Position numbers and translations under genes: made by a program. From Flavobacteriaceae bacterium (lineage in GTDB: Bacteria; Bacteroidota; Bacteroidia; Flavobacteriales; Flavobacteriaceae): a DNA stretch of 49,589 nt. The stretch spans positions 1-49,589 of the forward strand of contig JABSPL010000062.1 of the NCBI GenBank assembly GCA_013215105.1, given 5' to 3'. The notes beneath the pieces are model-generated. The model made no database searches. It was not told where the DNA came from and saw nothing but the letters and a program-made list of their open reading frames with translations. This document shows, one piece after another, positions 22,161 to 49,589 of this stretch; positions within the stretch are counted from its first letter, which is position 1, and every line of letters begins with the position of its first letter.

Positions 22161-22838
22161 TTAACCTTCTTTTCTTTTAACCTTACGTATTACAAGCCTC
22201 AGTCCTTTATCATTTCTTAGATAACTCCAGCTCCAATTCAGAAGTACGACAAGTCTATTTCTGAAATCGACCAGTAGCATCAAATGCAAAAACATCCACG
22301 TAAACCAAGCGATAATTCCCGAAAACTTCAAAAAAGGCAAATCTACTACTGCTTTGTTTCTACCTATGGTAGCCATAGTACCTCTATCGTTGTAAACAAA
22401 GGCTTTCATCTTCTTTTTATTAGCAATTGCATTTAGGTTTTTTGCCAAATGTTCACCTTGCTGTCCTGCAACAGAAGCTAACATCAGATACCCTCTCTTG
22501 TCCGCCTCTGACTCTATACAAGCAACGTCTCCTATTGCAAAAACATCCTCATAGCCTTTTACTTTATTATATTGATCAGTTATAACTCGTTTTCCTCTGT
22601 TTAGACTTTTATCCATATTAGATATAGGAGATCCCATAACTCCAGCCGACCATATCAATGTTTTGGTATTAAAATTGGTTGCGGAGGTAACAGCTATACT
22701 ACCATCATAGTCTTTCACTGTAGTCTTTAGCCATATATTTACACCTAGTTTTTTCAAAAACTTATACGATTTTGAAGATGCGTTATCACTCATACCCGAT
22801 AGAATTCTGTCAGATGCTTCTACTAAGTATTTGCATCT
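22161..22838 (-). pseudogene. Truncated type II NADH dehydrogenase (NDH-2), C-terminal half
   Basis: The open part from ATG 22793 encodes 210 residues. The NDH-2 homology continues upstream in frame to about 22838 (LVEASDRILSGMSDNASSK). It then passes, still open, into REP-like DNA that encodes nothing of the family. What remains is the second nucleotide-binding half: TLIWSAGVMGSP, the FAD-contacting VFAIGDVACIE and AGQQGEHLAKNL, followed by a C-terminal amphipathic/hydrophobic region (KFSGIIAWFTWMFLHLMLLV) for membrane attachment. Intact NDH-2 proteins have about 420-450 residues, so roughly 220 N-terminal residues with the first GxGxxG FAD motif are lost. I found no trace of them elsewhere in the window. 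Probably inactive. Confidence 0.8.
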
Positions 22839-22894: not shown

Positions 22895-22970
22895 GTTTTA
22901 AAAGATCTAGAAGAGCTAAAATATGACGCTCAATTATTTTCTATTAATATTACTCCTATTAATATTCCGC

Positions 22971-23011
22971 CTCTATTAATATTCCGCCACGCTGTGGCTT
23001 ATCGTTCCTGT
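22971..23011. repeat. REP-like palindrome, copy 2
   Basis: Identical over the 41 bp to copy 1 at 22854-22894. Two degenerate CTATTAATATT(A/C)C half-units lie just before it (22941-22970). Confidence 0.75.
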
Positions 23012-23062: not shown

Positions 23063-23521
23063 TTATTCATCAATAAAAATATATTCTGATTTAAAATCAA
23101 TATGATAAGCATTAAGGAATTCTATATATTCTTCTTTAAATGTTTTCTTAGCATGATGTTTCTCTTGATTCTTAATATACTCTACTACATTACTAATTCC
23201 TGATTGACTTACAGTAAACGCCCCAAAACCTGTTTGCCATTCAAATTTTCCATTCATAAATTTTCTTTGATCTATCCATTTTGAAGAATTCGTCTTTACA
23301 TCTCTGATTAAATCAGACAAATTACAATTCGGTTTTGTTCCTATTAGCAGGTGTATATGATTAGGCATACCGTTTATAATCATCAGTTTCTGATTTTGAT
23401 TAGAAACTATCCCTGAAATATATTTATACAATTCATCTTTCCAATTAGTTGAAATCTTGTTTTGTCTACCTTTTACAGCAAATACGATATGAAAATATAA
23501 CTGAGTGTATGTGTTAGCCAT
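23063..23521 (-). CDS. Y1 (HUH) transposase, REP-associated (RAYT)/IS200-like
   Basis: Protein of 152 residues from the ATG at 23521 (MANTYTQLYFHIVFAVKGRQ); a longer frame from 23575 is possible but lacks family similarity in the extra part. The HUH metal-binding motif is H55-I-H57 in GMPNHIHLLIG. The catalytic tyrosine is probably Tyr115 in NVVEYIKNQEKHH. These single-strand nucleases cut and rejoin DNA at short hairpins. REP-like palindromes lie on both sides, and no accessory TnpB is present. The ORF is intact. A remnant of another copy's C-terminus (FIDEQYRS) is readable near 23736-23775. Confidence 0.88.
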   Translation of the reverse strand: MANTYTQLYFHIVFAVKGRQNKISTNWKDELYKYISGIVSNQNQKLMIINGMPNHIHLLIGTKPNCNLSDLIRDVKTNSSKWIDQRKFMNGKFEWQTGFGAFTVSQSGISNVVEYIKNQEKHHAKKTFKEEYIEFLNAYHIDFKSEYIFIDE

Positions 23522-23686
23522 TGTTTTAATAATTTTATATTTCCAGATACCTGTCGTTTTATTTAAAACATCCATAAGAAATAAATATTAATAGCTTTAA
23601 AGATACGATATTTATAGAATTACATAGAGTTCTCCAATAAAAACATAATTACGTACCTGCATTTACCTTTATCATAATATTCCGCA

Positions 23687-37256: not shown

Positions 37257-37646
37257 TTACTCTAATACCTCCGAACACAGAGTAATAAATACGGCTTGCT
37301 CTGAATAAAAAGTATAGCCATCGTCGACAGTAACAAAAGCTCTGGCATAATACTTAGTATTCTCTTCTAATCCCTCTAATTTAACTTCTATTATATTATC
37401 TACAAACTCAGCTTCAAATACCATATCTCCTAACTCAGGAATTGGAGATATAGAATAAACTAAACCTGAGTTTTCGATTTCATACAGCTCTAACTCTTCG
37501 AGTATTATTTTAGCTTCTGCCGATTTCACACCTAGAACAAACTCGGTCAATGTGAATTCTAATTCATGACCTAAATCACCCTTTTTACAACCGAAAGGTA
37601 ATATCAACAACAATATCACTGAAATTAAATTAATTTTTCTCTTCAC
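37257..37646 (-). CDS. Short lipoprotein with one FN3-like domain (array member 1)
   Basis: Protein of 129 residues: a signal peptide with lipobox ILPFGC (Cys20), then a single fibronectin-III-like domain (about 28-123, with the TKYYARAFVTVDDGYTFYSEQAVF strand pair). Its N-terminal domain is clearly homologous to domain 1 of the large lipoproteins upstream (FTLTEF...SGLVYS...YYARA). It looks like a family member reduced to its first module. The residues after the lipidated Cys are Lys-Lys-Gly-Asp, unlike the acidic start of the large paralogues. Whether it is functional or a truncated copy cannot be told. The frame has no visible decay. Confidence 0.8.
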   Translation of the reverse strand: MKRKINLISVILLLILPFGCKKGDLGHELEFTLTEFVLGVKSAEAKIILEELELYEIENSGLVYSISPIPELGDMVFEAEFVDNIIEVKLEGLEENTKYYARAFVTVDDGYTFYSEQAVFITLCSEVLE

Positions 37647-37950
37647 TTTTCTTCCTTAAACATATAAAACACTAATTAACAGGGACTAACAGGAACTTTA
37701 ACATTAAACCATCTTTTATTTGTTTGACTTAACACAACAACAAATATATTATTATAAATGAATAATTTCCAGATTATTAGCTAATATACCATATATATAT
37801 AACAAGACCTAATTAACAAACAAGTTTACATAATTATTAACAAGTATATTAACTTAATTAACTATTTATATAAACACAAAAAAGCAGTATTCCATCTGAA
37901 ATCCAAATGAAATACTGCTTTTTAATAATTTTATTATTTCTACTACCTAA
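37647..37950. other. Gene-free stretch between array members 1 and 2
   Basis: 304 bp, very AT-rich. It holds a -7-like TATATTTG (37741-37748, minus strand) that may serve the short lipoprotein gene, with no -33 partner, and the terminator of the next gene at 37879-37923. Nothing else is evident. Confidence 0.5.
37879..37923 (-). terminator. Terminator of array member 2 (type A)
   Basis: A 13-bp stem AAAAAGCAGTATT/AATACTGCTTTTT (37879-37891 and 37911-37923) encloses a 19-nt loop. The same hairpin, with nearly the same loop, recurs at 42125-42169 after member 4. Confidence 0.75.
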
Positions 37951-39933
37951 CTATTCAGGTGTTTCTGTAGACCTTTCGTAACTAAAACCTCCTCCGTTCT
38001 GTCCCGAAGTCCAAGAAGTAAATTTGATATCTATATATATGTTTTCTTCCTCTAGGTGAAGAACCATATTTTTACCCGCAATAAACGAAGCTCCGTAAGT
38101 CGTTTTACCTAAAAAGCTGTTAAAAGACAGGTTTTCTACACCATGAGCTATAGTTCCGTAAGCCCACTTAGTACCCACAGGAGATAAACTCGACTGACCC
38201 GATTCGGAATTTATATTAAATATAGACCAACTATCTGCTCTGGTTATGCTCACTCCCAAAATAGTATCTTGACCATCTACCTCTCTATCTATAGTTATTA
38301 TATCTTGATTTTCTTCTAGAGTATGATTTGCATAATCTTCTTTAGTAAAAGTAATATTTTCTCCTAACCATAAAACGGCTGCTTCATCTACAGGCTTATC
38401 AGAATCACTGATATTGTATTTGCCATTAGTTAGCTCTTCAATAGAGGGAACATACAAGTTGTTTTCTATAACATAAGCCTCTACTCCTGTCTTTCCTTCT
38501 TCGGGAACTGTGTTTATCAAGGTTTCCAAAGCAGAATAATCAACTAATACAGGATTGTCGTGTATTGACGAATCACTATATCGCCCTACTCCAGAGTAAC
38601 TAAGGTTTTCTATACCATTTAAGCTTTCCAAAGAATCATTTAACGATATAGTAAGACCATTTGCTACTTCTAAAGAAGCCAAACCGTTCAAATCAGTTAT
38701 TTTATCATTTTTAGATATAAACATAAAATCAGTAGAGCTAACCAAATTACCTAAACCCGTAAAACTTAAGAGCTCTTCATTGTATTCTACGATCAAATAT
38801 TTAGTTGTTATTAAAGATTCTAAACCTGACAAATCTGTTAAACTATCATTATCATACACATATATCTCTTCTGCATTCACAATACCTTCTAAACCTTCTA
38901 AGCTAAGTAAACCATCGTTGTTTACTATATATAAGCTTATCAAAATATTTTCTTCTTCCTGCTGTTTACTCACTATATTCTCTAAGCCATTTAGGTTCCC
39001 TATATTAGGGCTTCCCATAATATATAATTCTCCAAATACATGCTTAATAGATTTTAAACCACTAATGTCACTTATATCTGAGGTTGGCTCATCATATTCA
39101 TCATATCGAGAATAAAACTCATTATAATTACTAGTCTTTCTGCTAGCTGCCCTACCTGCAGGGTAAACACCTATGATCAATACTCCCTCTATAGATGTAT
39201 ATTTTTCAGTCACAAAAGCATCAACCTCTGCCTGACTTGCCAATGTAAGATCTCCAACATATGGCTTTTCGGTATATTCGGTATCAAAAGAAACTACATC
39301 AGAATAAAAAGTTCCATAATCATTTTCGCCGTAGGCTTTAACGTAATACTTAGTCCCTCCTATTAACTCTGTTGCTGTCAGATTAAATTCAGAATTTGTT
39401 ATCTCTACAGTTTCAATATCTTGTTCAAAATTTTCAGATATACTATATATAAATCCTTTATTTATTATATCGTAACCTTTATCGTCGCTTATAGCCGAGG
39501 TAAAAGTAGCTTTTGTATCAGATATTTCCGAAACAGATATCTGTGCAAAATCGGGGATTGACGTCTCTATAGCGTAGGTATTAAAAGCAACCTGCTCCGA
39601 ATAAAAAGTCTCGTTGCTATCCATAGTTATAAATGCTCTAGAATAATACACCGTATCGGCTTGCAAGTCATTAATAGTTACAATCATAGTATTTTCAACA
39701 AAATTTGCCTCAAAAACTATATCAGATATAGTAGGATTTTCATTTATAGAAAAAACAACTCCTGAGGTCTTTATTTTGTACCCTTCTATTTCGTCCAAGA
39801 CAACCTCTGATGTAGCCGAATCGATACTTACAATAAACTCCGACAAAGCAAATTCAATATTTTTCTTTATTTCATCTTTATCACAATTAACAAATAGCAA
39901 CAAAGTTACTATTGCATAAATTAATTTTCTCAT
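37951..39933 (-). CDS. Surface lipoprotein with FN3-like and leucine-rich L-domain repeats (array member 2)
   Basis: Protein of 660 residues. The lipobox ends at Cys17 (LLLFVNC), followed by DKDEIKK. Two FN3-like domains cover about 25-118 and 128-220. A receptor-L/leucine-rich domain (about 225-490) is built of repeats such as NDSLTDLSGLESLITTKYLI, each about 23 residues. The C-terminal domain (about 505-660) has ITFTKED, NQDIITI, FIAGKNMVLHLEEENIYIDI and ends GGGFSYERSTETPE. Acidic residues after the Cys fit a Bacteroidota lipoprotein export signal, so surface exposure is inferred. Function unknown; FN3 and L-domain modules usually bind protein or glycan partners. An Arg/Tyr-rich loop (about 255-283) varies between paralogues. 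Confidence 0.85.
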   Translation of the reverse strand: MRKLIYAIVTLLLFVNCDKDEIKKNIEFALSEFIVSIDSATSEVVLDEIEGYKIKTSGVVFSINENPTISDIVFEANFVENTMIVTINDLQADTVYYSRAFITMDSNETFYSEQVAFNTYAIETSIPDFAQISVSEISDTKATFTSAISDDKGYDIINKGFIYSISENFEQDIETVEITNSEFNLTATELIGGTKYYVKAYGENDYGTFYSDVVSFDTEYTEKPYVGDLTLASQAEVDAFVTEKYTSIEGVLIIGVYPAGRAASRKTSNYNEFYSRYDEYDEPTSDISDISGLKSIKHVFGELYIMGSPNIGNLNGLENIVSKQQEEENILISLYIVNNDGLLSLEGLEGIVNAEEIYVYDNDSLTDLSGLESLITTKYLIVEYNEELLSFTGLGNLVSSTDFMFISKNDKITDLNGLASLEVANGLTISLNDSLESLNGIENLSYSGVGRYSDSSIHDNPVLVDYSALETLINTVPEEGKTGVEAYVIENNLYVPSIEELTNGKYNISDSDKPVDEAAVLWLGENITFTKEDYANHTLEENQDIITIDREVDGQDTILGVSITRADSWSIFNINSESGQSSLSPVGTKWAYGTIAHGVENLSFNSFLGKTTYGASFIAGKNMVLHLEEENIYIDIKFTSWTSGQNGGGFSYERSTETPE

Positions 39934-39980
39934 TCTCTTTTAGGTTTTTGATTATTTATTTTTCTTTATAAAAACAAAGG

Positions 39981-39988
39981 CAAATTTA
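39981..39988 (-). promoter_or_regulatory. Candidate -7 box for array member 2
   Basis: TAAATTTG on the minus strand, 47 nt before the start codon. No TTG lies at the expected -33 distance, so the support is partial. Confidence 0.35.
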
Positions 39989-40023
39989 AGGTTTTTAATA
40001 AAAAAAAAGGTAGAAATTTAAAT

Positions 40024-40067
40024 AAAAAAAGGCAACTCATTTACTTGTAAATGAGTTGCCTTTTTTT
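40024..40067. terminator. Strong hairpin terminator after the decayed paralogue
   Basis: The stem GGCAACTCATTTAC/GTAAATGAGTTGCC (40031-40044 and 40047-40060) is flanked by A7 and T8. It lies 26 nt past the stop codon of the C-terminal remnant at 40093 and probably once ended that gene. Confidence 0.8.
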
Positions 40068-40092
40068 TATTACAAAAGAGTTATTGTTCTAT

Positions 40093-40282
40093 TTATTGAG
40101 GTGTTTCAGTCAATCTTTGGTAACTAAAACCTCCGCTTCCTACTTCTTAGCCTTCATTTGCTGAGGTCTACGAAGTGAGTTTATACCAAATGAACATTAA
40201 AATAATTCTGTTTTTCTAAGGTCATTTCAAAATACATTGGTATAAATCATAATCAGCTTTTCTTTAGTAAAAGTAATTGTTA
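40093..40282 (-). pseudogene. C-terminal domain remnant of an array paralogue, interrupted by a palindromic element
   Basis: Read on the minus strand, the frame gives ITFTKEKLIM, then a 65-bp palindromic element, then KLTS-stop-TSANEG-stop-EVGSGGFSYQRLTETPQ-stop. These are the start and end of the paralogues' C-terminal domain, with the roughly 85 residues between lost and two in-frame nonsense codons. No signal peptide or other module remains, so this is a dead 3' end of a former gene. Confidence 0.75.
40181..40245. repeat. 65-bp palindromic element inside the remnant
   Basis: Its ends are TTATACCAA (40181-40189) and TTGGTATAA (40237-40245). The right 45 bp match the right end of the 158-bp element at 17391-17548 closely. 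It sits within the paralogue remnant, so it inserted there or was left at a deletion junction. Confidence 0.6.
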
Positions 40283-40288
40283 TTCTAT

Positions 40289-40409
40289 TTATTGAGGTAT
40301 TACAGTAGATCTTTGATAACTGAAACCTCCACCTCCTGCCTCTTAGTCTTCATTTTCTGAGGTCCACGAAGTCAGTTTACTCCTGCCATAAAACAGCAGT
40401 ATCATCTAC
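40289..40409 (-). pseudogene. Decayed C-terminal domain of array member 3
   Basis: The same frame as the upstream ORF continues past its TAG as VDDTAVLWQ. An internal deletion then brings KLTSWTSENED-stop-EAGGGGFSYQRSTVIPQ-stop into place. Intact paralogues read QGNVVDETAILWQG and then about 100 further residues before KFTSWTSG. The TAG replaces a Val codon. The gene therefore lost its C-terminal domain by a nonsense mutation plus a deletion. Confidence 0.8.
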
Positions 40410-41930
40410 CTAATTATCTTGATTTGCAATATCACAATCACCTTCTACCAAATCTTCATAAGAAGGATTATATAGATTACTATATATATATAAAGACATT
40501 TCAAAACCAGTTTGTTCATTAATAGATGCAGACACAAGCTCACCTAAAGCACAATAATTAGATAACGTCTCGTTATTTTCTATATAAACATCCTCTATGT
40601 AAATAAGATTATCTAAACCATCTAAACTAGTTATTCCATCATTATATCTTATGTTTAAGACAGATGCGTTAACCAAAGACTCTAAACCTACTAGATTAAT
40701 CAAAGAAGTATTGTAGGCTATATCAATATACCCCGAGGGAGGCCCCATCATAGACCCTTCTGACACTATTAAGTCCAAATTATTAAGTCCTTCTAAATTA
40801 ACAAGACTATTATTATGTTCTATGATTAAATATAATGCATTAGTCAAAGACTCTAAACCTACTAGACTGGTCAAAGAATCGTTATAAGATAAAACAACAA
40901 GACCTGGAGGCACCTCCGTCATAGATCCTTCCACAGGAGGTTCTTCTGATATTATTAAATTGATATTATTTAAACCCTCTAGATTTGTTAGGTTAGAATT
41001 TCCAAAAACAATTAGGGAACCTTCAATAGATGATAAAGAAATCAAACCCCTTAAATCAGATATATCAGTTGTAGGCACATCTTCATCTATAGGCTCTCTT
41101 CTACCTTTAGTTTTATCATTTACACTTTTATATCTAATCCTTTGCTCAGGTTCGTCTAAAGCAATAGAAATCAATAAACTTCCTTTTATATCCGTGTATT
41201 TCTCTGCAGCAAACTCCTCAACTTCAGCTTGAGTACTAAGCATAACATCTCCGTCGTACTCTTTGTAAGTGTATTCGGTAGTAAACATAACTGGTTCAGT
41301 ATAGAATGTATCAAAGCTATTTTCAGCATAAGCTTTAACGTAGTATGTAGCACCTCCTATCAGCTCAGTTATTACTGAACTAAATTCTTCACTTATAACA
41401 ACTATAGTCTCTATATTTTCTCCAAATTCTTCAGACACACTATATACAAACCCTTTACTAACTATTGCATAACCATTATCATTGCTTATAGAAGCTGTAA
41501 AAGCTGCTGTCATATCAGAAATATCAGAAACAGAAACCTCTCCAAAAACAGTAGTAGAAGTTTCTATACCATTAGTTTTAAAAGAAACTTGATCCGAATA
41601 AAAAGTCTCGTTGCTAGTTGTTGTTATGAAAGCTCTAGCATAGTAAGTAGTATCGTCTGATAGTCCGCTAAGGTCTATAGTTATGTTATTATTAACTAAG
41701 TCAGCCGTAAAAGTTTCATCAGCTATAGTAGGGTTTTCAGCAATAGCATAAGCCACTCCTGCAGTTTGCACGTCGTAACCTTCTATAGTATTAAGTACTA
41801 ACTCAGCAGTTGCTGTGTCTATGTCTGATACAAAATCGGACAGTGTCACATTAACTACTTTTGTAACTTCTGCATCTTCACAATTTGCAAATAGCATAAC
41901 CATAGCTACCGCATAAATAATTTTCTTCAT
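40410..41930 (-). CDS. Lipoprotein with FN3-like and L-domain repeats, C-terminus lost (array member 3)
   Basis: The remaining open frame encodes 506 residues. The lipobox is VMLFANC (Cys17), followed by EDAEVTK. Two FN3-like domains (about 25-120 and 128-220) precede leucine-rich L-domain repeats (about 225-480), such as NNSLVNLEGLNNLDLIV. The product ends at EGDCDIANQDN, exactly where the C-terminal domain should begin. Remnants of that domain lie directly downstream, so this is a truncated family member. The shortened lipoprotein could still be secreted and functional as a repeat-only protein. Its repeats resemble those of member 5 more than those of member 2. A variable Arg/Lys loop lies at about 260-285. 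Confidence 0.78.
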   Translation of the reverse strand: MKKIIYAVAMVMLFANCEDAEVTKVVNVTLSDFVSDIDTATAELVLNTIEGYDVQTAGVAYAIAENPTIADETFTADLVNNNITIDLSGLSDDTTYYARAFITTTSNETFYSDQVSFKTNGIETSTTVFGEVSVSDISDMTAAFTASISNDNGYAIVSKGFVYSVSEEFGENIETIVVISEEFSSVITELIGGATYYVKAYAENSFDTFYTEPVMFTTEYTYKEYDGDVMLSTQAEVEEFAAEKYTDIKGSLLISIALDEPEQRIRYKSVNDKTKGRREPIDEDVPTTDISDLRGLISLSSIEGSLIVFGNSNLTNLEGLNNINLIISEEPPVEGSMTEVPPGLVVLSYNDSLTSLVGLESLTNALYLIIEHNNSLVNLEGLNNLDLIVSEGSMMGPPSGYIDIAYNTSLINLVGLESLVNASVLNIRYNDGITSLDGLDNLIYIEDVYIENNETLSNYCALGELVSASINEQTGFEMSLYIYSNLYNPSYEDLVEGDCDIANQDN

Positions 41931-41983
41931 TATTGAGTTTTATTTAAAATTAATATTCTGTTTTACTCTTAAAGAGACAATTT

Positions 41984-41991
41984 CAAATATA
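41984..41991 (-). promoter_or_regulatory. Candidate -7 box for array member 3
   Basis: TATATTTG on the minus strand lies 53 nt before the start codon. No -33 TTG is present at the usual distance. Confidence 0.35.
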
Positions 41992-42124
41992 ATAAAAAAT
42001 TAACTAAAAATATTATAACCCCTATTATATTAAAACAAATACAACTCACAAAAACAACAAGTAAACACAAAATTCAATAAACACCTAACACACTTACTCT
42101 TAAGGACTGAAATCACAATACAAA

Positions 42125-42169
42125 AAAAAGCAGTATCCCATCTGAAAACCAAATGAAATACTGCTTTTT
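42125..42169 (-). terminator. Terminator of array member 4 (type A copy)
   Basis: The stem AAAAAGCAGTAT/ATACTGCTTTTT (42125-42136 and 42158-42169) is nearly identical to that at 37879-37923, including most of its loop. Confidence 0.75.
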
Positions 42170-42197
42170 ATTAATATTTACTATACTTGCTACCTAA

Positions 42198-44561
42198 CTA
42201 CTCAGGTGTAGCGGTAGATCTTTGGTAACTAAAACCTCCTCCGTTCTGTCCCGAAGTCCAAGAAGTGAATTTGATATCTATATAGATGTTTTCGTTAGCC
42301 AAATAAAGGACAAAACTATTACCTGGAAGATTTTCAGCATTACCATCAACTAAATAATCAGTGAAATCCAAGTTTTCAACTCCCATTTCTATAGTACCGT
42401 TAGCCCACTGTACGTAACCAGGAGAATACTCTGATCTTCTATATACCATTTCTTCATAAGCATTATAAAGAAGACCGTTATTTCCTCTAGTAAGCCAAAC
42501 TTCATCGGTTATCCTATCTTGATTTGCTTCTAAACTAGAATCTGCACCGTCCTCTTTAGTAAAAGGAATAGTTGGTCCTTGCCATAAAATAGCAGTCTCA
42601 TCTACCACATTACCTTGGCTATACATATCATAATCACCCTCTATTAAATCTTCAAAAGAAGGATTGTATAGATTACCGTATATTTCCAAGTCCAATTCCG
42701 ACTCTGATACAAGCTTACTTAAAGCAGAATAATTAGATAACGACCAGTTGTTTCCTATATAAACATCCTCTGCATAGACAAGATTCTCTAAACCAGACAA
42801 ACTAGTCAAAGAAGTGTTCCCGTATATATATAACTCGTCACTTACACTAGTTAAACCCTGTAAACCATCCAAGTTTATTAAACTATTATTGTATTCTAAA
42901 TCTAAATAATAAATATACTCCAAACTTTCTAAACCAGATAAATTTAATAATGAGGAGTTATCGTATATATAAAATTCATCTACATTTATCAATCCACTTA
43001 ATCCTGTAAAATCAGTCAAACTTGTGTTTCCAATTATCCCAACCTCATAAGGATTAACTACACCTTCTAAACCTTCTAGGCTAGTTAATGCTTCGTTGTA
43101 CACAATAGAAATAGAAGGCATTCCATATTCCATTTCTTCTTCCATTCTACCAGATCTATTAGGTGGTCCTGGAGGGCCTTGATCATAACCTTCTGAACTA
43201 ACCAAATTACCTAATCCACTTATACTAGTTAAGCTAGGATTGTTAAATATTGTTAATTCTCCTTTAATTTCAGATATTGACATTAAACCGCTTATATCTG
43301 ATATATCAGACCCTACAGGCATCTCTGGTTCTGGATTTGGATCCATACGTCCAGAAATATCACCTCCTAATTCTTTAGCTCTTCTATATTCTACACGAGT
43401 AGCATCTGTTCTTCTTTTATAATTATGACGTCTTTCATTAGTATTATCACTAACACCTCTACTAAACGGAGGCGGCCCTCCACCTTCATTATCTTCGTCA
43501 ACACCTATAATCAAGTCTCCATATATAGCAGTATATTTTTCAGAGACGAACATATCGACATCTTCTTGGCTTCCAAGAATAACATCTCCTTCTTTTATTT
43601 TTTCAGTATAATCAGTAGTAAAAGAAACTATTTCACTATAATAAGTTCCATACATATTTACAGCATAAGCCTTCACATAATAGACCGTTCCACCTTCTAA
43701 GTTTTGTACTTGAGTAGTGAAACCTTCAGATCCACTTCCTTTTGTTTGTGGCTCTAACAATTCTTCAGAAACACCATAAACAAAACCTGTACTCAATATT
43801 TCTTGATCTCTATCATCTGTAACTTCTCCTGTAAATGTAACAGTTACATCAGTTATATCAGATGGTTCTGATATTGAAACAGTAGGTACTGCTTCTTCTA
43901 CCCAGTCAGCTACTATAGCAGTCACTTCACTATAGAAAGTTCCAAATTCGTTAACAGCATACGATTTCACACTATAGCTTTCACCTTGCATAACGTCAAA
44001 CTCTGCAGAGAAAGAAGAAAAATCTTCAGTTTCTACCATAGTAGTAACATCGGCCATACCATCTTTCATAAATACAAAACCTACCTCTGTGATAGTTCCG
44101 TAATCAGCATTATTAACAGCATTAGACTCCACAGAGACTTTAGTAGCACTCATTCCTTCAAAAACAGGAGTCATAAAAGTAGGGCTAGCCTTGTCTAAAG
44201 CTTTAGTTTTAAAAGATATTTGAGAAGAATACAAAACATTATCTCCTACATTAACATATGCTCTGGCATAGTATGTAGTATCAGCTGTCAAGTCACTCAA
44301 ATTAACAGATATTCTGTCATCTTCGAATTGAGCTGCATAGGTCATATCGTCGGTCGTAGGGGTTTCATTAGTAGCATAAGCCACTCCTGAATTTTCTATA
44401 CTATAACCTTCAATATCTTCAAGAATAACCTCGGCAGTAGCTGAAGTTATACCTATATTAAACTCCGTTAAAGTGAATTCAATATTATTTTTAATCTCTT
44501 CTTCATCGTCACAATTTGCAAATAGCATCACCATAGCTATCGCATAAATTAATTTTTTCAT
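42198..44561 (-). CDS. Surface lipoprotein with three FN3-like domains and L-domain repeats (array member 4)
   Basis: Protein of 787 residues. The signal peptide ends at lipobox Cys17 (VMLFANC), followed by DDEEEIKNN, a strongly acidic stretch that fits a surface export signal. FN3-like domains cover about 25-120, 125-220 and 226-318. The L-domain starts at 324 (EGDVILGSQEDVDMF) and is interrupted by an Arg/Gly/Asp-rich loop (355-418). It resumes at DISDISGL, followed by about six leucine-rich repeats to about 640. The C-terminal domain (655-787) contains LWQGPTIPFTKEDGADSSLE, NQDRITDEVWLTRGNN and the tail GGGFSYQRSTATPE. The frame is intact. Its 5' half is almost identical to members 5 and 6, but its 3' end and terminator match member 2. 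Confidence 0.85.
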   Translation of the reverse strand: MKKLIYAIAMVMLFANCDDEEEIKNNIEFTLTEFNIGITSATAEVILEDIEGYSIENSGVAYATNETPTTDDMTYAAQFEDDRISVNLSDLTADTTYYARAYVNVGDNVLYSSQISFKTKALDKASPTFMTPVFEGMSATKVSVESNAVNNADYGTITEVGFVFMKDGMADVTTMVETEDFSSFSAEFDVMQGESYSVKSYAVNEFGTFYSEVTAIVADWVEEAVPTVSISEPSDITDVTVTFTGEVTDDRDQEILSTGFVYGVSEELLEPQTKGSGSEGFTTQVQNLEGGTVYYVKAYAVNMYGTYYSEIVSFTTDYTEKIKEGDVILGSQEDVDMFVSEKYTAIYGDLIIGVDEDNEGGGPPPFSRGVSDNTNERRHNYKRRTDATRVEYRRAKELGGDISGRMDPNPEPEMPVGSDISDISGLMSISEIKGELTIFNNPSLTSISGLGNLVSSEGYDQGPPGPPNRSGRMEEEMEYGMPSISIVYNEALTSLEGLEGVVNPYEVGIIGNTSLTDFTGLSGLINVDEFYIYDNSSLLNLSGLESLEYIYYLDLEYNNSLINLDGLQGLTSVSDELYIYGNTSLTSLSGLENLVYAEDVYIGNNWSLSNYSALSKLVSESELDLEIYGNLYNPSFEDLIEGDYDMYSQGNVVDETAILWQGPTIPFTKEDGADSSLEANQDRITDEVWLTRGNNGLLYNAYEEMVYRRSEYSPGYVQWANGTIEMGVENLDFTDYLVDGNAENLPGNSFVLYLANENIYIDIKFTSWTSGQNGGGFSYQRSTATPE

Positions 44562-44605
44562 TTTTCTAATATTTTAAATATTTTTTTTTATATCCGACAT
44601 CATAA

Positions 44606-44622
44606 TTGTAGTAATACTACAA
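44606..44622. promoter_or_regulatory. Operator-like palindrome upstream of array member 4
   Basis: TTGTAGTA-A-TACTACAA is a perfect 8-bp inverted repeat, 10 nt below the -7 box and so just inside the predicted leader. A near-identical palindrome lies at the same place before member 5 (47303-47317). Confidence 0.5.
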
Positions 44623-44632
44623 AACCCTCTAT

Positions 44633-44662
44633 CAAATGTAATAAATATTATTAAATAAACAA
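44633..44662 (-). promoter_or_regulatory. Promoter of array member 4
   Basis: On the minus strand TTG (44660-44662), a 19-nt spacer and TACATTTG (44633-44640) form a standard Bacteroidota promoter. The architecture is repeated before member 5. Confidence 0.65.
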
Positions 44663-44749
44663 GAAAAACACCAAATAGACCTTAATTATATAGTTTAAAG
44701 ACAATTAACAGATATGTTTTGTGAACTTAATTGATTTTCAGTACCTCTA

Positions 44750-44817
44750 GCAAGCCCAATATAGCCAAGCTTCGGTTTATTTCAACTTCAGAGTTCAATA
44801 TCCCATAGTGGGCTTGC
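44750..44817. repeat. Imperfect 13-bp inverted repeat in a variable insert
   Basis: GCAAGCCCAATAT (44750-44762) and ATAGTGGGCTTGC (44805-44817) pair at 12 of 13 positions. The matching region upstream of member 5 (47430-47490) lacks about 66 bp here, with short TAGCC direct repeats at the breakpoints. It lies in the gene-free stretch 44562-44940, which otherwise holds the promoter, the palindrome and a terminator. Confidence 0.55.
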
Positions 44818-44853
44818 ACCACCTAGCCAATAACAACGCACGGCACACCAAAA

Positions 44854-44888
44854 AAGGGATATGTTTCACCAAATGAAACATATCCCTT
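44854..44888 (-). terminator. Terminator of array member 5 (type B)
   Basis: A 15-bp stem (44854-44868 and 44874-44888) around AAGGGATATGTTTCA with loop CCAAA is followed on the minus strand by T6. It recurs almost exactly at 47487-47525. Confidence 0.85.
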
Positions 44889-44940
44889 CTTACAAATCTA
44901 TATATTATTCTTATATAGCCATATATAGTCATATATAATA

Positions 44941-45143
44941 TTACTCTACAGTAGCAGCAGTAGATCTTTCGTAACTAAAACCTCCTCCTGAACCTTCGCC
45001 ATCTCCATTTCCTTCAGACCAAGAAGTGAATTTGATATCTATATAGATATTTTCTTCTATTAAGTAAAGAACCATGTTTTCACCTACCACCATAGTAGGC
45101 TCCCAATCTATTTCATATAATAAATGGTCGAAAGACAATAACT
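44941..45143 (-). pseudogene. Detached C-terminal tail of array member 5
   Basis: Read from about 45143, the frame gives NLSFDHLLYEIDW-like sequence, then VGENMVLYLIEENIYIDIKF, and the closing GGGFSYERSTAATVE. It is the end of the paralogues' C-terminal domain, shifted out of frame from the main ORF. Between the two, the first frame reads on as DNAIGETIV after a TAA at the place of a Gln codon. A nonsense mutation plus a deletion with frameshift therefore separated this piece from 45167-47260. It has no credible start of its own. Confidence 0.75.
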
Positions 45144-45166
45144 ATAGTTTCACCTATCGCATTGTC

Positions 45167-47260
45167 TTAATCAGCAGCACAATCGCCTTCAATCAAATCT
45201 TCATAAGATGGATTATACAGGTTGCCACTTGCACCAAAGTACACTTCAAAACTAGGTTCTCCATTTATAGATGCAGATACAAGTGCATTCAGACCACAAT
45301 AGCTAGATAACAACAAATTATTGTCTATATAAACAGAATATGCATAAATAAGGTTTTCTAAACCCAACAGACTAGTCAAAGAAGGATTTTCAGATATATA
45401 TATCTCATAGCTAACATTAGCTAAACCCTGTAAACCATTTAAATTCAGTAAATTATCATTATACTCTATATCTAGAGAACCTAAACTTTCAAGATTATCT
45501 AAACCAGATAAACTAGTTAAAGAAGAGTTTCCATATATATATACATCGTCACTTACACTAGTCAAACCTTGTAAACCATCCAAGTCTATTAAACTATTAT
45601 TGTATTCTATATCTATATAACTTAAACTATCAACACTATCTAAACCAGATAAGCTAATCAAAGAAGGGTTTTCATATATATAAACGAAACCTGAAGGTGG
45701 ACCCATCATAGGCTCTTCTGATATTATTAAATCCAAATTATTAAGTCCTTCTAAATTAACAAGACTATTATTAGAATCTATAATTAAATGAAATGCATCA
45801 ATCAAAGACTCTAAACCTACTAGATTAGTCAAAGAATCGTTATAACCTATATAAACAAAACCTGAAGGCTCTTCCACAGGAGGCCCTTCCATAGGAGGTC
45901 CTTCCATAGGAGGTCCTTCCATAGGAGGTCCTTCCATAGGAGGTCCTTCTGATATTATTAAATTGACATTATTTAAACCTTCTAGACTTGTTAGGTTAGG
46001 GTTTCCAACAATATCTAAGGATCCTTTAATAGATGATACAGAAATTAAACCACTTATATCTGATATATCTGAAGTAGGCATATCAGGTTCTTCCATGCGA
46101 TATTCTGTATTTACTCTAGCTGAACGTCGTTTTTTATTAGAGATAGCTTCTACATAAGCTCTACGATCATCTTCATCCTCATCCTCATCCTGATAAACAC
46201 CTATAGTTAGGTTACCATCTATATCGGTATATTTTTCAGAGGCAAACATATCTACATCTTCTTGGCTTCCAAGAATAACATCTCCGTCATGTTCTTTGTA
46301 AGTATACTCAGTCATAAAAGAAATAGTTTCTCCATAGAAGACACCATACATGTTTTCGGCGTAAGCCTTCACATAATACATAGTTCCACCTTCTAAGTTC
46401 TGCACATCAAAACTAAAACTTTCATTTCCGCTTTCTACTGTTATACTTCCCTCTTCTAATTCTTCTGAAGTTCCATAAACAAATCCTATACTTAGTATAT
46501 TATAGTCTTTGTCATCTGTGACATCTGCTGTAAATGTAGCAGTCATATCTGTTATATCAGAAGGAGCTCCAATTGTCATAAGCGGAGTAGATTCTTCAAC
46601 CCAGTCAGCTACTATAGCAGTCACTTCACTATAGAAAGTTCCGAACTCGTTAACTGCATACGATTTTACACTGTAAGTATTTCCTTGAACAACTTCAAAC
46701 TCTGCAGATAAAGAAGAAAAATCTTCAGTTTCTACCATAGTAGTAACATCGGCCATACCATCTTTCATAAATACAAAACCTACTTCAGAAATAGTTCCGT
46801 AATCAGCATTATTAACAGCATTAGATTCTACATAGACTTTAGTAGCACTCACTCCTTCAAAAACAGGAGTCATAAGAATAGGACTAGCCTCATCTATTGC
46901 TTTAGTTTTAAAAGACATTTGAGAAGAATACAAAACATTGTCTCCTACATTAACATATGCTCTGGCATAGTATGTAGTATCAGCTGTCAAGTCACTCAAA
47001 TTAACAGATATTCTGTCATCTTCGAATTGAGCTGCATAGGTCATATCGTCGGTCGTAGGGGTTTCACTAGTAGCATAAGCCACTCCTGAATTCTCTATAC
47101 TATAACCTTCAATATCTTCAAGTATCACCTCGGCAGTAGCTGAAGTTATACCTATATTAAACTCCGTTAAAGTGAATTCAATATTGTTTTTAATCTCTTC
47201 TTCATCGTCGCAATTTGCAAATAGCATCACCATAGCTATCGCATAAATTAATTTTTTCAT
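45167..47260 (-). CDS. Lipoprotein with three FN3-like domains and L-domain repeats, C-terminus lost (array member 5)
   Basis: Open frame of 697 residues from the ATG at 47260 (MKKLIYAIAMVMLFANC), which matches the paralogues. An earlier in-frame ATG at 47299 adds 13 residues without a signal-like start. After lipobox Cys17 and DDEEEIKNN come three FN3-like domains (about 25-318) nearly identical to member 4. The L-domain region has an Asp/Glu/Arg-rich loop (DEDEDEDDRRAY), a GPPME minisatellite and about eight leucine-rich repeats such as YGNSSLTSLSGLDNLESLGS. The product ends at EGDCAAD, where a Gln codon became TAA at the start of the C-terminal domain. The lost tail is at 44941-45143. It may act as a truncated surface protein. 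Confidence 0.8.
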   Translation of the reverse strand: MKKLIYAIAMVMLFANCDDEEEIKNNIEFTLTEFNIGITSATAEVILEDIEGYSIENSGVAYATSETPTTDDMTYAAQFEDDRISVNLSDLTADTTYYARAYVNVGDNVLYSSQMSFKTKAIDEASPILMTPVFEGVSATKVYVESNAVNNADYGTISEVGFVFMKDGMADVTTMVETEDFSSLSAEFEVVQGNTYSVKSYAVNEFGTFYSEVTAIVADWVEESTPLMTIGAPSDITDMTATFTADVTDDKDYNILSIGFVYGTSEELEEGSITVESGNESFSFDVQNLEGGTMYYVKAYAENMYGVFYGETISFMTEYTYKEHDGDVILGSQEDVDMFASEKYTDIDGNLTIGVYQDEDEDEDDRRAYVEAISNKKRRSARVNTEYRMEEPDMPTSDISDISGLISVSSIKGSLDIVGNPNLTSLEGLNNVNLIISEGPPMEGPPMEGPPMEGPPMEGPPVEEPSGFVYIGYNDSLTNLVGLESLIDAFHLIIDSNNSLVNLEGLNNLDLIISEEPMMGPPSGFVYIYENPSLISLSGLDSVDSLSYIDIEYNNSLIDLDGLQGLTSVSDDVYIYGNSSLTSLSGLDNLESLGSLDIEYNDNLLNLNGLQGLANVSYEIYISENPSLTSLLGLENLIYAYSVYIDNNLLLSSYCGLNALVSASINGEPSFEVYFGASGNLYNPSYEDLIEGDCAAD
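45871..45945. repeat. Minisatellite: five tandem 15-bp units inside array member 5
   Basis: CTTCCATAGGAGGTC repeated five times (the first copy with two changes). It encodes GPPME-type pentapeptides on the minus strand. The unit is a multiple of three, so gain or loss keeps the frame. Confidence 0.9.
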
Positions 47261-47302
47261 TTTTAGGGTTTTTATTTTTTTATTTATATTCGACATCATT
47301 AA

Positions 47303-47317
47303 TGTAGTAATACTACA
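47303..47317. promoter_or_regulatory. Operator-like palindrome upstream of array member 5
   Basis: TGTAGTA-A-TACTACA lies 10 nt below the -7 box, equivalent to 44606-44622 before member 4. Confidence 0.5.
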
Positions 47318-47327
47318 AATTCGAAGT

Positions 47328-47357
47328 CAAAAGTAATGATTTTAGCTTAATAAACAA
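47328..47357 (-). promoter_or_regulatory. Promoter of array member 5
   Basis: On the minus strand TTG (47355-47357), a 19-nt spacer and TACTTTTG (47328-47335). Spacing and position match the promoter of member 4 exactly. It is part of the 304-bp gene-free stretch 47261-47564, which also holds the member 6 terminator. Confidence 0.65.
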
Positions 47358-47486
47358 AAAAAATACTAAATCAACCTTAATTATATAGTTTAAAGACAAT
47401 TAACAGATATGTTTTGTGAACTTAATTGATTTCTAGTATCTCTAGCAAGCCTAATATAGCCAATAACCATGCACGGCACACCAAAA

Positions 47487-47525
47487 AAAAGGGATATGTT
47501 TCACCAAATGAAACATATCCCTTTT
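47487..47525 (-). terminator. Terminator of array member 6 (type B copy)
   Basis: A 17-bp stem (47487-47503 and 47509-47525) with loop CCAAA, the same hairpin as 44854-44888, 40 nt past the member 6 stop codon. Confidence 0.85.
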
Positions 47526-47564
47526 TAAAATCTATATATTATTCTTATATAGTCATATATAATA

Positions 47565-49589
47565 TTACTCTACAGTAGTAGCGGTAGATCTTTCATAACT
47601 AAATCCACTTCCATCACCACTCCAAGAAGTAAATTTAACATCTATGTATATATCATCGCCTGTCAAATACAGAACCAAATTTTTTCCTATTAGAAATGTA
47701 CCGTCGTCAAACTCTGGCGTTAAATCATATAAATTCTTAAAAAACAAACTACTAACACCATCCGATATACTTCCTTCTGCCCATATTATAAGAGTAGGGT
47801 CAGGCCCCATAAGAGGAGGAGCATTAGGATCTGGATACACATTAAAATAACTATAAACATATCCATTATCATCTCTAGTTATAGAAACATTTGGAGTTAT
47901 CAAATCTCTATTTTCAGCTAAAGAAGAATCAGTTCCGTCCACTTTGATGAAAGTCATAGTTGGTCCTTGCCATAAAATAGCAGTCTCATCTACCACATTT
48001 TCTTGATCAGTAATATCGAATTTCCCATTTATTAGATCTCCGAAAGAAGGATTATACAGGTTATAATCTGTCGTGAAATCCAATTCAAAACCAGATTCTT
48101 CATCCTCAGATGCAGATACAAGTGAGCTTAAAGCACTATAATTAGATAACAACTCGTTGTCTGATATATAAACTTCCTCTATGTAAACAAGATTATCTAA
48201 ACCATCTAGGCTAGTCAGTTTATCATTGTATGCTATATCTATTAGAGTAGCATTTGTTAATGATTCTAAACCTATTAGATTAATCAAAGAAGGATTATAT
48301 ACTATAATAAAAGATCCTGAAGGCTCTTCCATAGGAGGCTCTTCCATAGGAGGCTCCTCTTCCATAGGAGGTCCATCGTTCATTATAAAATTAATATTCC
48401 CCAAGCCTTCTAAGCTAGTTAGATTAGGATTACCAAATATAAAAACAGATAACTCAACTGTTTTTATAGAAATCAAACCACTTAAGTCATTAATATCAGT
48501 TGCAGGGGGACCCGGCATTCTATTTGCAGCTACACTAAAACGTACTCCTGGAGGGCCACTATTTGGATCAAAGGCAGATATCATCAATGATCCAGATATA
48601 GAAGTGTATTTTTCAGCTACAAAAGCATCCACTTCAGCTTGACTTTTAAGAAAAGCATCTCCTTCTTTTATTTTTTCAGTATATTCAGTAGTAAAAGAAA
48701 CTATTTCACTATAATACTTTCCATACATGTTTTCGGCGTAAGCCTTCACATAATACATAGTTCCACCTTCTAAGTTCTGTACATCAAAACTAAAACTTTC
48801 ATTTCCGCTTTCTACTGTTATACTTCCTTCTTCTAATTGCTCTGAAGTACCATATACAAAACCTTTACTTATTATATCTTGATTTTTGTCGTCTGTAATT
48901 TCTGCCATAAAGCTAGCAGTAGTATCTGCTATATCAGAAGGAGCTTCTATTGTCATAAGAGGAGTAGATTCTTCAACCCAGTCAGCTACTATAGCTGTCA
49001 CTTCACTATAGAAAGTCCCGAATTCGTTAACAGCATACGACTTTACACTATAGCTTTCACCTTGCATAACGTCAAACTCTGCCGAAAAAGAAGAAAAATC
49101 ACTAGTCTCTACATTAGTCATAAGACCATCCTCACCATCTTTCATAAACACAAAACCTACTTCAGAAATAGTTCCGTAATCAGCATTATTAACAGAATTA
49201 GACTCAACAGAGACTTTAGTAGCACTCACTCCTTCAAATACAGGAGTCATAAGAGTAGGACTAGCCTCATCTATTGCCTTAGTTTTAAAAGATATTTGAG
49301 AAGAATACAAAACATTGTCTCCTACATTAACATATGCTCTGGCATAGTATGTAGTATCAGCTGTCAAGTCACTCAAATTAACAGATATTTTTTTATCTTC
49401 GAATTGAGCTGCATAGGTCATATCGTCGGTAGTAGGGGTTTCACTAGTAGCATAAGCCACTCCTGAATTCTCTATACTATAACCTTCAATATCTTCAAGA
49501 ATAACCTCGGCAGTAGCTGAAGTTATACCTATATTAAACTCCGTTAAAGTGAATTCAATATTATTTTTAATCTCTTCTTCATCGTCACA
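47565..49589 (-). CDS. Surface lipoprotein with FN3-like and L-domain repeats, 5' end off the window (array member 6)
   Basis: 674 residues are visible. The frame is open to the right edge, and its first codon is the lipobox Cys itself (CDDEEEIKNN), so only the signal peptide lies outside. An internal GTG at 49460 is not the start. Three FN3-like domains are nearly identical to members 4 and 5. The L-domain has a shorter variable loop (GPPGVRFSVAANRMPGPP), a PPMEE minisatellite and fewer leucine-rich repeats. The C-terminal domain is intact: LWQGPTMTFIKVDGTDSSLA, a more divergent centre, then KNLVLYLTGDDIYIDVKF and GSGFSYERSTATTVE. The tail and terminator match member 5. Confidence 0.85.
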   Translation of the reverse strand, partial: CDDEEEIKNNIEFTLTEFNIGITSATAEVILEDIEGYSIENSGVAYATSETPTTDDMTYAAQFEDKKISVNLSDLTADTTYYARAYVNVGDNVLYSSQISFKTKAIDEASPTLMTPVFEGVSATKVSVESNSVNNADYGTISEVGFVFMKDGEDGLMTNVETSDFSSFSAEFDVMQGESYSVKSYAVNEFGTFYSEVTAIVADWVEESTPLMTIEAPSDIADTTASFMAEITDDKNQDIISKGFVYGTSEQLEEGSITVESGNESFSFDVQNLEGGTMYYVKAYAENMYGKYYSEIVSFTTEYTEKIKEGDAFLKSQAEVDAFVAEKYTSISGSLMISAFDPNSGPPGVRFSVAANRMPGPPATDINDLSGLISIKTVELSVFIFGNPNLTSLEGLGNINFIMNDGPPMEEEPPMEEPPMEEPSGSFIIVYNPSLINLIGLESLTNATLIDIAYNDKLTSLDGLDNLVYIEEVYISDNELLSNYSALSSLVSASEDEESGFELDFTTDYNLYNPSFGDLINGKFDITDQENVVDETAILWQGPTMTFIKVDGTDSSLAENRDLITPNVSITRDDNGYVYSYFNVYPDPNAPPLMGPDPTLIIWAEGSISDGVSSLFFKNLYDLTPEFDDGTFLIGKNLVLYLTGDDIYIDVKFTSWSGDGSGFSYERSTATTVE
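48326..48373. repeat. Minisatellite: three 15-bp units inside array member 6
   Basis: CTTCCATAGGAGGCT/GTC units at 48326-48340, 48341-48355 and 48359-48373, the last after a 3-nt spacer. It encodes PPMEE-type repeats and corresponds to the array in member 5 with a different copy number. Confidence 0.8.

Follow-up and report, generated by a model that had tools for sequence, protein, structure and literature searches.

The right end of the contig analysed here raises the question of whether neighbouring genes for surface proteins have exchanged segments with one another and, if so, to what effect. The window, by which we mean the entire contig (C184; GenBank JABSPL010000062.1, 49,589 nucleotides (nt)) of a 3.05-Mb draft genome of a Flavobacteriaceae bacterium (GCA_013215105.1; 224 contigs, about 92% complete), carries at 37257-49589 six paralogous open reading frames (ORFs), all on the minus strand and arranged along it in the order m6, m5, m4, m3, m2, m1. 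A preliminary description of this DNA had counted at least six same-strand paralogues, and this number stands as a lower bound, since the contig breaks inside the array. Our reading, to which we give a probability of roughly 0.78, is that these tandem genes encode predicted surface lipoproteins, featuring an FN3-like stalk, an L-domain and an optional C-terminal domain (CTD), and that the copies recombine with each other. In this regard, gene conversion between tandem copies, which the preliminary description had expected, is strongly supported by the rotation of closest pairs, a PHI-type incompatibility test (p = 5e-4), abrupt switches in synonymous divergence (dS, from 0 to about 1.7), the lack of shared tracts with dispersed paralogues and a second array in another genus.

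Which two of m4, m5 and m6 are most alike in 60-nt windows changes several times along their first kilobase. These three members had been described as almost identical over their first 300 residues, which they are not: protein identity over residues 17-316 is 83-88%, going down from 95-97% over residues 17-136 to 65-81% over residues 217-316, and the nucleotide sequence is a patchwork in which the best pair reaches 92-99% and the others 62-78%, with the partner rotating. The 5' ends are the most alike (93-100% in windows starting at 0-240). Further downstream, m4 and m5 pair at alignment positions 440-506 (identity 0.99, against 0.75 for both m4-m6 and m5-m6), m4 and m6 at 518-566 (0.96, against 0.76 for both m4-m5 and m5-m6), m5 and m6 at 713-860 (0.94, against 0.72 for each with m4), m4 and m6 again at 869-926 (0.95, against 0.64 for each with m5), and m4 and m5 again at 934-972 (0.92, against 0.62 for each with m6). 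The segmentation also contains one segment of 5 nt that is not trustworthy.

The sharp switches of identity in sliding windows that had been predicted for gene conversion are therefore present, and they are non-random. For m4, m5 and m6, the 172 two-to-one sites fell into 55 runs, compared with 114 ± 6.1 in 100,000 shuffles (p ≤ 1e-5), and at third codon positions into 42 runs compared with 59.3 ± 4.4 (p = 1.5e-4). The PHI-type incompatibility across m2 to m6 was 0.403 against 0.566 ± 0.008 (199 sites), and 0.421 against 0.580 ± 0.017 at third codon positions (92 sites), in both cases with p = 5e-4, which is the floor of 2,000 permutations. Both tests reject a single shared history of the members, at third codon positions too. 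Additionally, dS between m4 and m5 rises from 0.0 over codons 146-170 to 1.69 over codons 170-190, these being short segments of 24 and 20 codons.

Exchange is also visible at the scale of whole genes, when each member is painted by its closest relative in 60-nt windows (positions given as window starts, restricted to windows whose best match reaches 75%). The member m4 is a hybrid of 5' and 3' parts, as the preliminary description had proposed: window painting, blastn and hairpin types all join its m5/m6-type 5' end to an m2-type tail and terminator, with windows 1950-1980 closest to m6 (77-90%), windows 2250-2400 closest to m2 (75-97%) and the m2 tail matching m4 at 97% in the best 60-nt window. 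Similarly, m5 is closest to m3 in windows 1170-1500 (78-92%, with the exception of 1380, where m6 is closer), to m4 in windows 1620-1710 (78-93%) and to m6 in those beyond 2280 (75-97%). Windows with at least 85% identity numbered 43-48 for the pairs among m4, m5 and m6 (e.g. 48 of 149 for m6-m5 and 48 of 176 for m5-m4), 11 of 130 for m3-m5 and 2-3 for m3 with m4 and with m6. Four dispersed paralogues in the same genome had not a single such window with any array member; the best window between array and paralogues was 80%, with the paralogue on contig C192, whose best match to m4 lies in its signal-peptide region. As a control, sequences read backwards never exceeded 63%.

A comparable arrangement was found in another genus. 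Searching 199 family genomes with a profile built from the leucine-rich region gave matches in 14 at E ≤ 1e-20, counting the window's own, and, apart from the latter, five clustered matches occurred only in the genome G085. Four regions from three genomes were inspected for leucine-rich arrays, and three of them held either a single L-domain gene (two regions) or a gene split by stops (one region). The fourth, on a 908-kb contig of G085 (C42; L186:2496-12164), carries seven consecutive same-strand lipoprotein-like genes, g1 to g7. The 5' module is alike in g1, g2, g3, g4 and g7 and the leucine-rich parts are mostly different, with g1 and g7 remaining alike far into the repeats; g2 and g6 have a common 3' end (88-95%), and the 5' end of g6 is without a partner at 85% or above.

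The mechanism that we propose is ordinary homologous recombination between neighbouring copies. Gene conversion would generate the short tracts of high identity, tens to about 150 nt in length, and unequal crossing-over could account for the hybrid m4 and for copy number. The gene ends, i.e. the signal peptide with the first FN3-like domain on one side and the tail with the terminator on the other, are homogenised between subsets of the genes, and the leucine-rich segments are reassorted between members.

Several observations weigh against this reading or narrow it. Exchange is uneven, as m2 has 5 of 149 windows at or above 85% with m4 and none with m3, m5 or m6, and m1 has none with any member; taken together with the zero tracts shared with dispersed paralogues, exchange thus appears to be confined to tandem copies and mainly to m3-m6. 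The tests are our own implementations and not published software, and the exchange is read from one draft genome sequence, which gives neither a rate nor a recency. Identical tracts as long as 72 nt are found close to the three earliest switches (first 272 nt), where an effect of the assembly is possible. The formal test in G085 is weak, and weaker than in the window (PHI-type p = 0.015, 48 sites, for five of the seven genes over the first 420 nt free of gaps). With regard to role, function is read from domain resemblance alone, and the homogenised 5' ends may reflect plain concerted evolution. Further, all scorable comparisons within the 5' kilobase give a ratio of nonsynonymous to synonymous divergence (dN/dS) under 1 (0 to 0.64), which argues against diversifying selection there; positive selection in the exchanged 5' region was rejected on the same values.

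The preliminary description had ascribed one shared architecture to all members, comprising a lipobox followed by acidic residues, FN3-like domains, a leucine-rich L-domain and a CTD ending in FSYxRST, and this is accurate for only three of the six, namely m2 (37951-39933), m4 (42198-44561) and m6 (47565-49589, its 5' end cut by the contig end). The members m3 (40410-41930) and m5 (45167-47260, with the start set at 47260; the mechanical ORF opens at 47299) end at a cysteine-containing leucine-rich repeat (LRR) cap and are without the CTD and its FSYxRST tail, m5 having a middle like m3 and m4 and a downstream tail like m6. The remaining member, m1 (37257-37646), is a lipoprotein-like ORF of 129 residues with a single FN3-like domain, 44% identical to residues 4-119 of m4, and is either a short member or a remnant. 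Leucine-rich regions are thus present in five of the six members, adjacent and on the same strand as in flavobacterial tandem LRR arrays. FN3-like and L-domain matches are found in some members and not in all: Recep_L (PF01030) exceeds its curated cut-off of 21.8 bits only in m4 (23.8 bits) and m5 (27.9 bits) and is weak in m3 (15.4 bits, under the cut-off), and m1, m2 and m6 were unlisted for it in the Pfam scan, yet m2 and m6 align with m4 and m5 across the region. All six members also match NF049889 (arabinan endo-arabinosidase) at 37.6-67.5 bits, far under its cut-off of 600 bits, and the best stretches fall in the N-terminal FN3-like part. An AlphaFold model of the whole m4, built from five sequences, was of low quality (mean pLDDT 59.5), supporting the regular strands of the leucine-rich part at residues 481-620 only (blocks of 79-93 pLDDT).

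The acidic residues behind the lipobox cysteine hold for m2 to m6 (C-DDEEE in m4-m6, C-DKDE in m2 and C-EDAE in m3) and fail for m1, which reads C-KKGD. The acidic lipoprotein export signal of F. johnsoniae has the consensus SDDFE according to the part of the report available (PMC5080379), and the motifs of the members resemble it in charge without being identical. From sequence alone, the members are putative Bacteroidota lipoproteins that may be displayed at the cell surface. Within the leucine-rich regions, all on the minus strand, m5 carries a 141-nt (47-residue) tandem repeat at 45350-45682 (2.4 copies, 78% matches) and an in-frame 15-nt minisatellite encoding PPMEG at 45871-45949 (5.3 copies), and m6 carries a related, PPMEG-like 15-nt in-frame minisatellite at 48321-48371 (3.2 copies); the two minisatellites are likely to vary in length.

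Two kinds of 3' end appear to exist among the genes: in one state a Ser/Tyr-type cap leads into the CTD, and in the other a cap with a cysteine pair is followed by a stop. The pair, formed by cysteines of the cap repeat and the L-domain end, was present in 12 of the 12 CTD-less proteins examined (m3, m5, three dispersed paralogues and seven G085 proteins, thus leaving out the truncated paralogue on contig C1 and the G101 and G201 genes) and absent from all three CTD-bearing ones, as judged from the pre-CTD part of m2 and m6 and the whole mature protein of m4, so that the two states rest on fifteen proteins which are not all independent. We assume that the cysteines of the cap form a putative disulphide. 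Decayed remnants of the CTD tail, recognised by blastn to the m5 tail and by reading frames, lie behind m3 at 40303-40378 and 40107-40182, and a remnant covering the last ~58 residues, out of frame, lies behind m5 at 44950-45138 (E 1.6e-18), all on the minus strand. From this arrangement we infer that m3 and m5 switched from the CTD state to the cysteine cap and stop, leaving dead CTD remnants behind.

Each of the six members has a TAnnTTTG box within 140 nt upstream (chance about 19% per stretch), a motif given as the flavobacterial -7 consensus in the available part of PMC9723704. Immediately downstream of this box lies a perfect dyad, TGTAGTATTACTACA, of which the genome holds three exact copies in all, before m4 (44607-44621, minus strand), m5 (47303-47317, minus strand) and m6 (contig C4, 11781-11795; L040), besides two one-mismatch sites elsewhere. 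This dyad is a candidate operator, or merely sequence that was co-duplicated with the genes. Five members are followed by their own terminator-like hairpin on the minus strand, of one type behind m6 (47486-47526) and m5 (44851-44891), a second type behind m4 (42125-42169) and m2 (37879-37923), and a third found behind m3 alone (40019-40072). As to invertible promoters, no pair clearly flanking a promoter was found among the 25 longest of 83 inverted-repeat pairs, several of which are terminator hairpins.

What the exchange might be for is less firm than the exchange itself. The preliminary description had suggested antigenic or ligand-specificity variation, which is not supported, as dN/dS is below 1 in the 5' kilobase and the 5' ends are homogenised and not diversified. 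Given the domain resemblance and the fact that the LRR segments are kept different, we tentatively suggest, as the most likely role, that the array may encode a surface-binding repertoire, in which the LRR segments would be variable and the ends constant for export and expression. A wider version of this proposal, in which Flavobacteriaceae L-domain arrays in general would be recombination-driven recognition repertoires, with constant promoters, signal peptides, stalks and 3' ends, continually reassorted LRRs and the two-state 3' cassette as a second level, and would have arisen in more than one genus, is in our view doubtful. A quite possible explanation, if one that stops short of being probable, is plain concerted evolution, i.e. 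homogenisation for dosage or by chance that yields a mosaic with no role in diversity. This would fit the peak of identity at the 5' ends of the genes (93-100%, windows starting at 0-240), the dN/dS below 1 and the birth-and-death appearance of m1 and of the remnants behind m3 and m5, but it fits less well with LRR segments that are kept diverged and yet remain open, being reassorted between members, and plain homogenisation does not favour the layout of constant ends and a variable middle seen in G085.

Alternatively, other strains, and not neighbouring copies, could have supplied the segments through transformation and recombination (allelic exchange). Windows of m4 starting at 600-780 nt have no close donor among the three members compared, matching m5 and m6 at 58-77%, and there is a precedent among Bacteroidota surface proteins with mosaic variants: in Porphyromonas gingivalis, the accessible part of one study describes domain rearrangement and strain-to-strain exchange of surface-protein alleles, with mosaics unrelated to strain phylogeny (PMC5266723). 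That exchange takes place between strains and affects gingipains, fimbriae and other surface proteins, whereas in the present case a donor-like copy for many mosaic segments lies within the array itself, the exchange is among neighbouring copies and the four dispersed paralogues are not involved. We therefore consider an origin in other strains unlikely.

A programmed system of antigenic variation of the vls or pilE type, in which silent cassettes feed an expression site, would also produce conserved ends, a variable middle and a tandem layout. The vls system of Borrelia combines one expression site with silent cassettes, and its switch has been observed; in Mycoplasma genitalium, mgpC is recombined with donor repeats. 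The likeness to both lies in segmental recombination that gives rise to mosaic surface proteins. In the present array, which is known from sequence alone, each member in contrast looks like an independent gene, with its own start codon and TAnnTTTG box in all six cases and its own hairpin in five, and the locus therefore does not resemble an arrangement of silent cassettes around one expression site. Further, no promoterless cassettes were seen in the array and no reverse transcriptase exceeded the Pfam cut-off in the genome, and we regard programmed variation as improbable. A diversity-generating retroelement was considered and rejected, the only PF00078 match in the genome, which is 92% complete, being sub-threshold and riddled with stops.

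Very improbable, too, is an assembly chimera, in which the draft assembler would have stitched together different copies, even if the draft comprises 224 contigs and this contig ends within the repeat with a 50-nt overlap. Among those listed, the longest three-way identical tracts near the switches at 428-934 nt measure 4-28 nt, which is shorter than this overlap, and a graph-based assembler could thus hardly have switched there; moreover, the mosaic continues through the divergent LRR segments, and a similar pattern is found in the second array on its 908-kb contig. Finally, uneven constraint along old duplicates that never recombined deserves next to no credence, since domains do differ in conservation but such constraint cannot rotate the closest pair, is rejected by the runs and PHI-type tests at third codon positions and does not fit the abrupt changes in dS.

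The CTD, located on the minus strand at 42201-42611 in m4 (137 residues), 37954-38397 in m2 and 47574-47999 in m6, has no Pfam match. It is a conserved module of about 130 residues of predicted secreted proteins, found in 37 of 397 family genomes, the window's own included. A scan of named genomes, many of them metagenome-assembled, gave 47 loci (L074-L120) labelled as Bacteroidota and also as Verrucomicrobia, Hydrogenedentes, Phycisphaerae and others. By a crude pattern, 20 of these CTDs stand in short proteins bearing a type IX-like tail, 5 in short lipoprotein-like proteins, 15 in ORFs longer than 400 residues (some very long) and 7 in short proteins of other kinds; only L095 showed a leucine-rich pattern ahead of the CTD, probably by chance. 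The structure prediction used an alignment of 45 rows, made up of the three window copies and 42 of the 47 loci; L093, L112, L113, L115 and L116, which are cut short or near-duplicates, were left out. The predicted structure is confident (mean pLDDT 88.7). Its closest fold neighbours, i.e. the top nine VIA-align rows, include HmuY, PinO, Tfo, Bfr and other Bacteroidota proteins, at Z scores of 5.8 to 3.3 (below Z 8) and a root-mean-square deviation of 3.5-4.2 over 90-106 residues. The titles of four of these nine name HmuY or a HmuY-like protein, and the remaining five we take to be kin of HmuY. Foldseek returned nothing for the CTD model at E ≤ 0.001 (best E 0.19). Membership in the HmuY family (PF14064) was rejected, with no Pfam match and a profile-profile probability of 0.5% against 17 PF14064 members. 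The CTD is thus at most HmuY-like in its predicted fold, with no sequence match to the PF14064 lipoproteins.

The array runs off the contig, and contig C4 terminates with the first 98 nt of m6, holding its start codon and signal peptide (C4:11841-11938) and overlapping the end of the window by exactly 50 nt, so that the assembly break is located in the most repeated part of the array. Two contigs of the same genome likewise terminate within lipoprotein-like genes with repeated domains at L040:2-2068 and L041:1-1248, which hints that further repeated surface-protein genes are perhaps broken in the same assembly. On the minus strand, m1 is followed by what we take to be an ftsX-like gene and then by presumed uppP-like and truB-like genes, and on contig C4 a presumably coaX-like gene precedes the start of m6. 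The neighbourhood of coaX was surveyed at 30 loci, of which 23 from relatives were counted after leaving out the own genome (one locus) and six minus-strand loci. In 22 of these 23, an outer-membrane-protein-like ORF (judged by eye) occupies the place of the array beside coaX, and the array therefore looks like an insertion or a rearrangement. Elsewhere in the window, an ORF at 23063-23575 presumably encodes a small IS200/REP-type transposase, and a 210-residue ORF at 22161-22793, which we take to be the C-terminal half of an NADH dehydrogenase-type flavoprotein, is possibly a broken gene; a 17-nt tandem repeat lies close by (22940-22988).

Tandem LRR arrays as such are already known from the same family. 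In the portions available of two reports on Flavobacterium psychrophilum, it took a hybrid assembly to resolve the tandem LRR genes, whose number is not the same in all isolates (PMC8400371), with 16 to 23 LRR ORFs per isolate (PMC8400371, PMC9723704), and 17 tandem LRR genes were induced by fish plasma (PMC9723704). For the present array, the 60 relatives considered and the genomes listed in the CTD and leucine-rich profile scans included none from its own genus. Such differences in gene number would imply recombination between copies, a word that does not appear in the main text of PMC8400371 as far as that text was accessible. According to the same partial sources, these arrays are, like the present one, long tandem series of predicted surface LRR genes; the present genes differ in encoding lipoproteins with FN3-like domains and an optional CTD, and the present evidence in being intragenic mosaicism in one genome, with the two families set side by side by description. 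No account of intragenic mosaicism in flavobacterial LRR lipoprotein arrays was found among the titles and abstract openings of the open-access PMC matches listed, which does not imply its absence elsewhere. To this known kind of locus, the present array adds direct sequence evidence for intragenic exchange.

Short-read assemblies may break or under-count arrays of this kind. If the exchange is continuing, several versions of the proteins would be expected within one clonal culture, and the array would be a source of flavobacterial surface variation, towards phage, host or substrate, that long reads could test.

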